Origin: a virus
IMG/VR virus record: IMGVR_UViG_3300046028_004948
Coordinates: 1-28,157 of that record
Reading direction: 5' to 3' (one strand)
DNA: 28,157 nt
Position 1 is the stretch's first letter. Each line of letters starts with the position of its first letter. The notes below the pieces were generated by a model. The model had not been told where the DNA came from. It did not search any database and saw only the letters and a program-made list of their open reading frames with translations. Positions 3,552 through 14,596 of this stretch are shown one piece after another. Position numbers and translations under genes: made by a program.

Positions 3552-4409
3552 TTAGTAGTAGAGTCTATCGGTTGAGTTCGGGTTTTTGTAGCCTGTGGCT
3601 TTCTTCCATTTGTCAGCGTTGGCGAGCGTGCTGGCTATGTTTTCGACAAGCTTGGATCTCTGCTCGAACTTGAACCATGCTTTGTCGTCGGGGTGATCGT
3701 AGAACGCTTTCAGCAGTTGCCAGTCGTCATCCGTGAGAGATTGGATCTGTGAGGCTGAGCCGTTGCGCAGAGATTCCATCTCGTTCCGATTCCAGCGTGG
3801 CACCCGCTTCCATGCCGGTCGCAGTTCGTTGATCTTGTCCATGAGCTGCTGCATGGTGATACCGGCTTCTGGTGGAGATTCCGAGAATGGAGATTCAATC
3901 ACACACGCACCCTGTATTGTAGGTGTGTTGTGTTTTGTTTTTGCTTCTGCTTCTGTATATGCTTCTGCTATGTCGGTCTTAACCGTTACTTGACCGTTAC
4001 TGAGCGTTACGCAAGCGTTATTTTCCGTTACGTTGGCGTTACGGTTCTTTTTGTCCCGATGCCGCTTTTGTCGATCTGCGTTTGATTTCTTGGAATCCTC
4101 TGCTGATGCCATGAGCCTGTATTTTCCATGATTAAGCAAAGCCCACCCGCCTTCGATCTTTTCAATCCTGCGTCCTTCGTCATCAGGTGTGCGTGAGTAT
4201 GGATCGGGAGCTAGAAACTTGTTGATCGCGTTTTCTGCCGCTTCGAGCGATACGCCAGAAACTCTCGCAAGTCCAGGTATCGAAGCCTGCACTTCTCCGT
4301 GCTGATCTGCAATCGCTAACATGGTGATCCATACGATACGCGTTTTGTCATCCTCAGTCCATATCGTGCTGGTGATGATCGAGTTGAAAAGTTTGGTATA
4401 ATTTGCCAT
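3552..4409 (-). CDS. Phage replication initiator (lambda O-like layout)
   Basis: A 285-residue protein with three parts. Residues 1 to about 100 look like the winged-helix N-terminal domain of phage replication proteins (MANYTKLFNSIITSTIW, then VWITMLAIADQHGEVQASIP and a GLARVSGVS helix). A low-complexity polar linker covers residues about 105-190, and a C-terminal helical domain about 190-285 (DDDWQLLKAFYDHPDDKAWF) may contact the helicase or its loader. The linker DNA carries six CGTTAC iterons, as in lambda O, where the origin lies inside the initiator gene. No helicase or primase is seen nearby, so host DnaB recruitment is likely. The start codon directly follows the T tract of a large hairpin, which suggests regulated expression. 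Confidence 0.75.
   Translation of the reverse strand: MANYTKLFNSIITSTIWTEDDKTRIVWITMLAIADQHGEVQASIPGLARVSGVSLEAAENAINKFLAPDPYSRTPDDEGRRIEKIEGGWALLNHGKYRLMASAEDSKKSNADRQKRHRDKKNRNANVTENNACVTLSNGQVTVKTDIAEAYTEAEAKTKHNTPTIQGACVIESPFSESPPEAGITMQQLMDKINELRPAWKRVPRWNRNEMESLRNGSASQIQSLTDDDWQLLKAFYDHPDDKAWFKFEQRSKLVENIASTLANADKWKKATGYKNPNSTDRLYY
3900..4042. other. Candidate phage replication origin: six phased iterons plus purine/pyrimidine-skewed segment
   Basis: On the plus strand CGTTAC starts at 3984, 3995, 4005, (CGTTAT) 4016, 4026 and 4037. The intervals are 11, 10, 11, 10 and 11 bp, matching the helical repeat, so an initiator would bind along one face. The copies fall in alternating reading frames (Val-Thr in one, x-Asn in the other), so selection acts on DNA rather than on peptide. 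Bases 3900-3980 beside them are A-rich on the coding strand with AGAAGC repeats, a plausible unwinding element. The layout copies lambda ori within gene O. This is inferred, not proven. Confidence 0.7.
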
Positions 4410-4410
4410 A

Positions 4411-4484
4411 AAATAAAAATCCCGCCATGTTGTCAGCCCTCACCTAGTTTGCCGAAGCTCCCTAGAACTGACCCCATGGCGGGG
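4411..4484 (-). terminator. Large multi-tier hairpin with T tract before the replication gene: attenuator or terminator
   Basis: In the minus-strand transcript 9 bp pair perfectly (CCCGCCATG at 4483-4475 with CATGGCGGG at 4429-4421). Inside this are GTCAG/CTGAC (4472-4468 with 4436-4432), CTAG/CTAG (4465-4462 with 4447-4444) and a GC-UUCG-GC cap at 4451-4458. The RNA continues ATTTTTATTT and then reaches the ATG at 4409. As an intrinsic terminator it would end the upstream operon; since no space remains for another promoter, the replication gene would depend on read-through. GGCGGG in the 3' arm could also be a hidden ribosome site. Confidence 0.6.
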
Positions 4485-9451: not shown

Positions 9452-9484
9452 CCATACGTTTGCCATACGTCTGCCATACGTCTG
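9452..9484. repeat. Three tandem 11-bp repeats (CCATACGTCTG)
   Basis: CCATACGTTTG (9452-9462), CCATACGTCTG (9463-9473) and CCATACGTCTG (9474-9484) follow each other without gaps; only one base differs. The 11-bp period places each copy on the same DNA face. The array sits between divergent promoters, where an operator or a second initiator-binding site would be expected. Confidence 0.75.
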
Positions 9485-9659: not shown

Positions 9660-9704
9660 ATCTCCCATGCCTCTCAACGATGCACACTTGGGGGATATTT
9701 TTTT
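9660..9704 (+). terminator. Terminator-like hairpin with T7 tract
   Basis: ATCTCCC (9660-9666) pairs with GGGGGAT (9690-9696), 7 bp with one U-G wobble. The 23-base loop contains a small TGC/GCA stem, and AT plus seven T residues (9698-9704) follow. Together with the promoter at 9514 it delimits a possible RNA of about 155 nt, or it acts as an attenuator of the gene starting at 9739. Confidence 0.4.
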
Positions 9705-12400: not shown

Positions 12401-12648
12401 TGGAAAAGGTCATCTAGTTGTTCGGGTGTTAGGGAAAATTTAGGCGCAAGAGTAGCGAGCAATTCAGAGTTTCTGCGCACTGTGGTTTCGTATTCCCACG
12501 AGTTTTGTGCCAAGGCTCGCTGCGTCTCGTTAGTGATTTTTGCAATCTCATCGTCAACCAAGTTTGGCGTGATTCCCCGCAAAATCAAGCGGTGGCGAAA
12601 CATCGCCATGCTTAGACTCATTGTATCTCTGTCTGTCTCGTTTTTCAT
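12397..12648 (-). CDS. Small phage protein after the tail fibre
   Basis: An 83-residue helical protein (MKNETDRDTMSLSMAMFRHR, ending SLTPEQLDDLF). No domain recognised. It overlaps the tail fibre stop as ATGA. Small proteins in this position may be tail-fibre chaperones or lysis regulators; nothing in the sequence decides. Confidence 0.5.
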   Translation of the reverse strand: MKNETDRDTMSLSMAMFRHRLILRGITPNLVDDEIAKITNETQRALAQNSWEYETTVRRNSELLATLAPKFSLTPEQLDDLFQ

Positions 12649-14258
12649 CCAAGTATAAGTTTACGGTTAAGTATTTTTGCGATGATTGATTGCCCTGCGA
12701 GCGGGGCAACTGTCGAGTGAGTTGCGGCAAGCCATAGGGGTGTCCCTTGGTTTGCAAATGCCCCACTTGTTGGCCCACCCGCAAGTGTCACCGTTGGGGT
12801 TAGACTCGGCACGGATGCCGCACTATTATTCCCAAACCACGTGTGTGCCGTAACGGTTCCTGCCGCATCCAGACGGACAATAACATTGAAAAACCCGTCA
12901 AGGTTTACTGCGCCTAGCCCAGTGTCGATTCCAGTCCCTTCAACATAAGTGGTGCCGTTGTGCGCCCAAAGGTTAAATTCCAGTTTGCTTGTCAAATTAT
13001 TCCAAGCAATTCGCCATCCGAAGCCCCTGCCTGTTGTCGCGTTCGCGTCTGCCGCAACTGCTGATGCGCCATTAGCCATTCCTATTCCACAGCGAAAACT
13101 TGCGCCATTTGCACCAGCTCCCCCGTGGATAATATTTCCTGCGCTCGCTAGCGATACTGGCATCACAACGTTAGCTGCACCAGAGTTGCCCGGATTGCGA
13201 TTCCAGTTGCGGAAACGATACACGTTTGGGCGCAGATTGGCGGTAGCGGTTGTGAGGTTCAAAGAGTCGCCGTCAGACCCCCCTACTGCTGTTCCCCCAT
13301 TAGCAACAAAGGTTCCGATGTCGCTTTCCATTACTGTAAGGAGTGTAAAAAGCTCCAGTGCTGCTTTGTGCGCCGTTGCTGCGCCCGTTCCATAAGTGTA
13401 AGCCGTGCCGTTAAACGTGGTTGTTCCCGATAGTGTGGCAGCATTAGCGTTTTGCGTTGCTAGCGTTCCAAGTTCTAATGCCGTTCTATGCGCTGCTGCC
13501 GCGCCAGTGCCGTAGGTGTAGCTTGTGGTGTTAAAGGTGGTCGCTGTTCCGCTTGGTATGGTTAAGTTGCGCCCTCCCGCACTCCAAGTGAGGCAAGGTT
13601 GCATACTGCCATCGACAAGCGATGCGCCGCCGCTTTCAACTGCTGCAAAGTTGGTGCTTTTTACTGCTGCGCTTGCGTGCGATGTCTGGATGTGAGCCGC
13701 TGAACCTGCGGTTGAAATTGTAGCGTTTGTGCCTGTAGTGTAGATCGTTGCATTTGCTCCTTGCGTGCCGATTGTCGCTCCTGCTCCTGCTGTTGAGATT
13801 GTAGCATTTGCTCCCTGCGTGGCAATTGTTGCCACCTCCCCTACTGTGAAAATTTCAGCCCCATATCCAAGCGTAAAAATATGCGCATCTGTCCCCTGCG
13901 TGTAAATTTGTGAATAATCACCGTCTGTGTAAATCTCGCCGCCTACTACTTCCAAGTCGGCAATCGATAAATTTGCCGTGCCATCGCTTGTCGTTGCGCT
14001 TGTTACGGAGTTCGGGCCAGCAGGGCCAGTGCTACCTGTCGCGCCGGTGTCGCCTCGCGGGATTGTAAAATTGAATACTGCCGCTGATGTCGTGCCGCTG
14101 TTTGTTACGCTTGCATTTGTCCCAGCTGCGCCCGTTGTTGTCGTGCCGACTGCTACTGTTGCTGATGTCCCTGCCGCGCCTCTTGCTCCAGTTGGTTCAA
14201 CTGTAATGACCCGAACGGGACACTCTCTCTCGATGTGGATGTGAATTGTGTCGCTCAT
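12645..14258 (-). CDS. Tail fibre with collagen-like and nonapeptide repeats
   Basis: A 537-residue protein from the ATG at 14258, which shares its A with the preceding stop (TAATG). An N-terminal region with GARGAAG is followed by a collagen-like stretch (GDTGATGSTGPAGP, about 69-82). Next come ten exact nine-residue repeats of the form I-x-T-x-G-x-x-A-x (109-198), probably a beta-solenoid shaft. A 40-residue duplication follows (TYGTGAAAAHRTALEL and TYGTGAATAHKAALEL). The C-terminal 200 residues are Gly/Asn-rich with aromatics, a likely receptor-binding head of lectin-like character. It is the last tail gene before lysis. Confidence 0.85.
   Translation of the reverse strand: MSDTIHIHIERECPVRVITVEPTGARGAAGTSATVAVGTTTTGAAGTNASVTNSGTTSAAVFNFTIPRGDTGATGSTGPAGPNSVTSATTSDGTANLSIADLEVVGGEIYTDGDYSQIYTQGTDAHIFTLGYGAEIFTVGEVATIATQGANATISTAGAGATIGTQGANATIYTTGTNATISTAGSAAHIQTSHASAAVKSTNFAAVESGGASLVDGSMQPCLTWSAGGRNLTIPSGTATTFNTTSYTYGTGAAAAHRTALELGTLATQNANAATLSGTTTFNGTAYTYGTGAATAHKAALELFTLLTVMESDIGTFVANGGTAVGGSDGDSLNLTTATANLRPNVYRFRNWNRNPGNSGAANVVMPVSLASAGNIIHGGAGANGASFRCGIGMANGASAVAADANATTGRGFGWRIAWNNLTSKLEFNLWAHNGTTYVEGTGIDTGLGAVNLDGFFNVIVRLDAAGTVTAHTWFGNNSAASVPSLTPTVTLAGGPTSGAFANQGTPLWLAATHSTVAPLAGQSIIAKILNRKLILG
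13665..13934 (-). repeat. Ten tandem nonapeptide repeats in the tail fibre
   Basis: Residues 109-198 divide without gaps into ten units such as IYTQGTDAH, IFTLGYGAE, IATQGANAT, ISTAGAGAT and IQTSHASAA (27 bp each). Ile (position 1) and Thr (3) occur in all ten; Gly (5) is in nine and Ala (8) in most. The first four units have aromatic residues at position 2, later ones small residues. Confidence 0.85.
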
Positions 14259-14596
14259 TATGCTTCTCTGGTTACTGTTGTTGCCACTGTGACATTGCCA
14301 CCGATCCATCTCAAAACTTGCCCGTCTCCGTCTTCCATGCGCAGATCCCATAAGTATGATCCAGCCGCGATTGCAAGCGTTTCCGCAGCTGATAGCGTTA
14401 GCGAAATTTCACCGATTGAAGCATTTGTTTCGATGATGACAAATTCACCAACGGCAGTTCCCGCGCTGTTCTTGATTTGCGCTCGCAATGCGTAATCGCT
14501 CAAATCAATCGGCACTTGCTTTTGGCAATCGCTATACATGACGATCCTCTGCGCAAAATCCGTATCATTTTCAATGTATAAATCGAGTAAAGTCAT
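14258..14596 (-). CDS. Tail/baseplate protein, BppU-like
   Basis: A 112-residue beta-rich protein (DFAQRIVMYSDCQKQVPIDL, then YALRAQIKNSAGTAV and SYLWDLRMEDGDGQVLRWIG). This arrangement, a material property followed by 'GEISLTLSAAET', matches the N-terminal domain of baseplate upper proteins and similar adaptors joining the fibre to the tail. It overlaps the glycosyltransferase and fibre genes, so it is probably the fibre adaptor. Confidence 0.6.
   Translation of the reverse strand: MTLLDLYIENDTDFAQRIVMYSDCQKQVPIDLSDYALRAQIKNSAGTAVGEFVIIETNASIGEISLTLSAAETLAIAAGSYLWDLRMEDGDGQVLRWIGGNVTVATTVTREA

Follow-up and report, generated by a model that had tools for sequence, protein, structure and literature searches.

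Helically phased iterons inside the initiator gene of a phage form a putative replication origin

The window analysed here, a complete IMG/VR virus record of 28,157 bases, carries a phased array of short repeats within the open reading frame at 3552-4409 on the minus strand. We consider it highly probable that this array marks an origin of replication lying within the gene for its own initiator, where iterons would be bound, an adjoining tract opened and a helicase recruited. Comparison of the sequences brings out the array itself, its phasing, the constraint on its codons, its exchange together with a helix of the encoded protein, and its match to sites upstream of the gene in relatives. The product of the frame appears initiator-like, a view supported by the families that its relatives match and by the helicase- or loader-like genes next to them. 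The features of the locus are collected in Table 1.

Table 1. Features of the putative origin and of the initiator gene in which it lies (positions in the window).
Feature	Position	Strand	Remarks
Initiator gene, 285 aa	3552..4409	-	open frame; putative origin mid-gene
Helical C-terminal domain, residues 186-272	3594..3854	-	proposed helicase/loader contact; pLDDT about 80-94
Purine-rich triplet/hexamer tract	3933..3968	-	proposed unwinding element; tandem period 6
Spacer, 15 bp	3969..3983	-	between last iteron and tract; ends GACATA
Iteron array	3984..4042	-	GTAACG/ATAACG six times on the coding strand, at spacings of 11-10-11-10-11 bp
Long basic helix, residues 94-125	4035..4130	-	proposed iteron reader; unbroken helix in the model
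R113-Q-K-R-H-R118 in the basic helix	4056-4073	-	R113 and R118 nearly invariant in relatives
Winged-helix domain, residues 21-93	4131..4349	-	AlphaFold2 pLDDT mostly >90
Hairpin and T run	4421..4483	-	-36.1 kcal/mol, z -4.2 vs shuffles

A sequence-only reading of this DNA had placed six CGTTAC or CGTTAT copies on the plus strand at 3984, 3995, 4005, 4016 (the CGTTAT copy), 4026 and 4037, and a pattern search of the window returned all of these starts, as well as the alternating spacing, exactly as reported. No other chain of at least four such copies at 10/11-bp spacing occurs in the whole window; the longest exact 5-mer chain has six members, against three in 200 dinucleotide shuffles, and a run of six was reached in none of 5000 synonymous-codon permutations in which the protein was held fixed. 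The same reading had held that the alternation keeps the encoded peptide from repeating, which is wrong at the level of 21 bp: 11 and 10 bp together make seven codons, so that the peptide repeats every seven residues, here as the heptad VTxxN[AG]x (VTENNAC, VTLSNGQ, VTV). Only two frames are open to the repeat, since GTAACG read in the third would bring in the stop codon TAA, and the alternation is strict because two usable frames and a mean of ~10.5 bp, one helical turn, allow no other order.

The linkers of 62 non-redundant relatives show autocorrelation maxima at 10/11, 21, 31/32 and 42 bp that are missing from the N- and C-domains. The spacing is thus conserved, as had been anticipated, with the ~10.5-bp phasing mostly kept though the repeat sequence itself varies: GTAACG is found in most relatives, and the other types include GTCCC, GTAGA, GTCAC, GTGAC, GTCGA and CGGAC. 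Tested gene by gene against synonymous permutation, the chain reaches P<=0.05 in 40 of the 62 and P<=0.01 in 25; L039, L044, L113 and L126 are among the relatives without a significant chain. The array is absent from a few homologues (L040-L042 and L112), which also lack the C-domain. These short proteins of 146-149 aa keep the winged helix and are perhaps regulators. The iteron zone of the relatives further shows a weaker self-similarity at 5/6, 16, 26/27 and 37 bp, that is, at half-turn offsets.

An A-rich, strand-skewed segment had been described beside the array, and the adjoining tract (GCA GAA GCA TAT ACA GAA GCA GAA GCA AAA ACA AAA) is indeed rich in purines, which make up about 70% of its coding strand and 74% in relatives, at an AT content of only about 55-60%. 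In 22 of 31 GTAACG-type relatives it starts 21 bp past the start of the last iteron. Both elements are marked by codon choice, which we counted in relatives over regions set by peptide and not by DNA, avoiding circularity. Within the iterons, valine is GTA in 78 of 79 cases (119 of 732 elsewhere) and threonine ACG in 80 of 81 (261 of 981 elsewhere), while in the tract threonine is ACA in 54 of 58 and alanine GCA in 209 of 214; the threonine codon thereby flips from ACG to ACA within 30 codons. The same tract DNA is read in another frame in L107 and L111, and also in L156, where it encodes KQKQ instead of EAEA. The proposal that selection acts on the DNA is therefore borne out by near-invariant codons, by phasing kept in relatives and by a repeat type that changes with the basic helix. 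We also considered whether the tract is a DnaA-trio and found no support for this identity, as its units are of the GCAGAA/ACAGAA type and not repeated 3'-[G/A]AT-5', and only the triplet spacing and the strand asymmetry are shared.

In an AlphaFold2 model of the initiator, built with 25 relatives, a winged-helix domain runs into a long basic helix, residues 131-179 are predicted to be disordered, and a helical domain follows. The array sits at the beginning of the disordered stretch, and array and tract together correspond to residues 123-159, which take in the last part of the helix and the greater share of the disorder; the location earlier assigned to the array, between the two terminal domains, agrees with this predicted structure. 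The winged helix is of the CRP type, reaching a best Z of about 8 across 64-69 residues; such a score, the tool warns, may reflect no more than a common arrangement. HTH_36 is hit by the window protein at E 0.02, under the Pfam cut-off, and by the best relative at E 8e-5. No solved structure related by sequence to the initiator was found, a Foldseek search of the PDB with the model returned no match at E<=0.001, and a search of INPHARED with the window protein returned none at 1e-5. The C-domains of relatives match PHROG families of replication initiation, primosomal and DnaD-like proteins, and the next frame in several of them is DnaB-type helicase-like or DnaC-type loader-like, judged by eye from the N-terminal sequence; Pfam and PHROG profile searches recognised no helicase or loader in the window's own next gene. 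The C-domain of the window protein is 80-81% identical in L012, which matches PHROG primosomal families, and in L018, both of which have N-domains other than its own. At the matching place, the linkers of L012 (1395-2240) and L018 (12-659) carry pyrimidine-rich TCTTCA/TCAACT triplet tracts of opposite strand asymmetry.

The reader of the repeats had been sought in the N-terminal domain; the sequence evidence points more to the basic helix, at about residues 94-125, than to the winged helix itself. A DNA-only scan for four GTAACG copies at 11-10-11 spacing found 59 stretches. Sense frames running through an array, taken from 150 aa upwards and screened with a three-copy pattern, number 47, and all 47 carry the motif R[QV]xx[HYFWLKQRM][RK] ahead of the array, ending 3-19 residues before it (75 residues upstream were searched), against 3.2% of control windows drawn at random from other long frames of the same loci; the 47 include close relatives, and so represent fewer independent events. 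The window protein, with RQKRHR at residues 113-118, has the same arrangement. GTAACG arrays occur in initiators of several N-domain clusters, unrelated families included, among them Phage_rep_org_N and Lin1244_N. There are 11 such clusters in all, of which the window family and the L153/L299 cluster each hold both the pairing of GTAACG with Gln or Val and that of GTCCC with Lys.

GTCCC arrays in initiators come after an RKxxxR/K helix, a link seen in a chosen subset, namely initiator-like frames with the helix nearby, taken from a noisier TGTCCC scan; many of its other matches fall in non-coding stretches or in genes that are not initiators, and were left uncounted. The pattern scan for GTAGA was too short to be used, its matches being mostly chance. 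Among loci outside the initiator family, L301, L307, L308, L314, L321, L330, L346, L349 and L355 have paired, opposite TGTCCC arrays about 60-70 bp apart, possibly another kind of origin or control region.

The coupling between helix and repeat can be viewed in L003 and L004, which are identical over residues 1-102 and 83-100% identical in the DNA outside the helix and iteron segment, whereas within the 180 bp of that segment identity is just 38-52%. Ten GTAACG copies in one are swapped for GTCCC copies at the same spacing in the other, and the repeat peptide changes completely along with the iteron (NVPEMSQ in L004). As judged from the aligned sequences, this is a natural swap, in which basic helix and iterons were exchanged as one unit. 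A strict residue code was tried and rejected, given RQ with GTCAC in L103, RT with GTCAC in L122, RQ with GTGAC in L106, L111 and L114, and RK with GTCAC in TMW 1.1386 P1; these exceptions make the relation an association and not a complete code. With this reservation, we lean slightly towards a portable cassette of helix, one-per-turn 6-bp iterons and purine hexamer tract that moves between unrelated initiators, in which the residue after the first arginine (Gln/Val or Lys) would help to set GTAACG or GTCCC.

Copies of the repeat also stand in front of the gene in many relatives. At least two GTAAC/GTTAC stand no more than 90 bp from the start codon in 18 of 31 GTAACG-type genes, against a background of 0.07 per stretch searched; they are absent in the other 13, L003 lacks them, and there is none in the 90 bp upstream of the window gene. 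Other repeat types repeat their own core there: TGTCCC occurs three times in L049, L057 and L105, GTCAC likewise three times in L103, and GTAGA is present in L116, L117, L120, L123 and L125. The own core averages 1.91 copies against 0.11 for GTAAC types, and 1.71 against 0.34 in the upstream regions of other genes for the remaining types, both excesses being reached in none of 5000 permutations. From the sequences, this fits one protein reading both the in-gene array and the upstream copies in relatives, and suggests autoregulation by the initiator in many of them. Where many relatives carry the iteron-like upstream sites, the window has a hairpin with a T run that looks like a terminator or attenuator; it ends about 12 nt ahead of the ATG of the initiator, and the intervening bases hold no obvious ribosome-binding site.

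Plasmid iterons generally lie outside coding sequence and are longer. Winged-helix initiators of iteron plasmids (RepE, pi, TrfA) bind direct iterons whose helical phase matters, and pi of R6K is an autorepressor (PMC10797057, PMC4980987); plasmid Rep proteins have two winged-helix domains (PMC4980987), unlike the window initiator. Among phages, the lambda origin lies in gene O (PMC7466680), and the term lambda-style, which the earlier reading had applied to the array, is apt as an analogy for the layout, in which the origin falls within the initiator gene, separating the parts that encode the N- and C-terminal domains, and the repeats are followed by a purine- or A-rich tract. It does not extend to the type of iteron: those of lambda are 18 bp long with inverted halves, spaced 20, 24 and 23 bp apart with no 10/11-bp periodicity by annotation and autocorrelation (PMC7466680), whereas those of the window are 6-bp, non-palindromic direct sites, one per turn. 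That the protein is not recognisably lambda O was rightly stated, as it matches neither Pfam O nor an O-like PHROG; an O-like PHROG match occurs somewhere in the protein in 2 of the 25 relatives (best E 2e-11), and the R[QV]xxxR helix was not found in lambda O. In SPP1, gp38 binds direct repeats of oriL within its own gene 38, next to an AT-rich unwinding element, a likeness taken from the published description (PMC6316719). By analogy, the window array is best read as a lambda/SPP1-style origin in an initiator gene, which would work like lambda ori and is not lambda O.

Further counterparts are the Phage_rep_org_N (PF09681) replisome organisers of Streptococcus phages Javan290 and Javan393, which share the linker cassette, with a basic helix RVALHR/RVAKHR, GTAAC iterons and then a purine-rich tract, but have an N-terminal domain other than that of the window protein; in Javan393 a DnaI-type loader is annotated as the next gene. 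The window protein does not match PF09681, and L130, L141 and L145, with the same cassette, do. In Mycobacterium phage Giles, gp63 (a RepA-like initiator in kin records) has the helix RQKRHRER followed directly by copies of AGTAACGC; it was reached through a weak match (E 3) and differs in its N-domain and in the irregular spacing of the copies. No mapping of an origin for Giles gp63 was found in the open-access literature, and no helix-iteron cassette in TP901-1 Rep.

The steps that we infer for an origin within the initiator gene are initiator binding, DNA opening, helicase recruitment or loading, and repression. Initiator monomers would line up in a row on one face of the DNA, each turn of the double helix offering one GTAACG site, and the basic helix after the winged-helix domain would probably enter the major groove. 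The aligned array would then open the purine-rich hexamer tract, two turns past the start of the last site, and the C-terminal domain would bring in the helicase machinery of host or phage. The initiator of many relatives probably binds the copies at its own start codon as well, limiting its own synthesis. A turn of GC skew expected near 4 kb did not appear; the record is linear and possibly a partial contig, and its skew follows gene direction.

The recurrence of the same sites directly ahead of the gene in many relatives means that the protein is probably also a regulator, and raises the question of whether the array is a mere operator, silencer or roadblock for autoregulation, with the origin elsewhere. 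We regard this as unlikely, because the upstream sites are variable, and absent from the window, from L003 and from many others, while the in-gene array is kept, because the codon-constrained purine tract stays 21 bp from that array, and because the window holds no other 10/11-bp chain. Centromeres and copy-control sites, too, can consist of short direct repeats, and the array could accordingly mark partition, incompatibility or packaging and not the start of replication. Its place inside an initiator-like gene, between the DNA-binding and C-terminal parts, the unwinding-like tract adjoining it and the helicase- or loader-like neighbours in relatives make such a role very improbable, and none of the genes of the window stood out as a partition gene.

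A further explanation turns the argument around and takes the heptad VTxxNAx and the EA/DT linker to be selected as protein, the DNA periodicity being a by-product. The seven-residue repeat of the peptide is real, but the codons that encode it are almost invariant and threonine changes its codon between iterons and tract; the tract DNA occurs in other frames (L156 and the frame-shifted L107 and L111), the peptide is wholly different when the iteron differs, as in L004, and the stretch is mostly predicted to be disordered. We give this explanation next to no credence.

Elsewhere in the window, an abiF RNA (Rfam RF03085) is found at 9661-9696 on the plus strand, scoring 39.7 bits where the gathering threshold is 37. 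Close by, at 9452-9484, lie three tandem copies of the 11-bp unit CCATACGTCTG with 95% matches and no clear gene, possibly an operator. A tandem repeat with a period of 27 bp occupies 13705-13829 within the frame at 12645-14351 (minus strand), where the protein repeats are Gly/Thr-rich and tail-fibre-like.

We found no published description of the helix-iteron cassette in the open-access literature, most subscription papers being outside the scope of the search. The locus offers a sequence-only route to replication origins and initiators in phages known only from metagenomes, accounts for the 11/10-bp alternation of repeats inside a gene, and is a clear example of double selection on a coding sequence, while the swap pairs L003/L004 and L153/L299 put the recognition between initiator and origin within direct test. 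If the cassette is indeed portable, the specificity of an origin could be read from the protein sequence and exchanged in one piece, the operator of that gene changing along with it.
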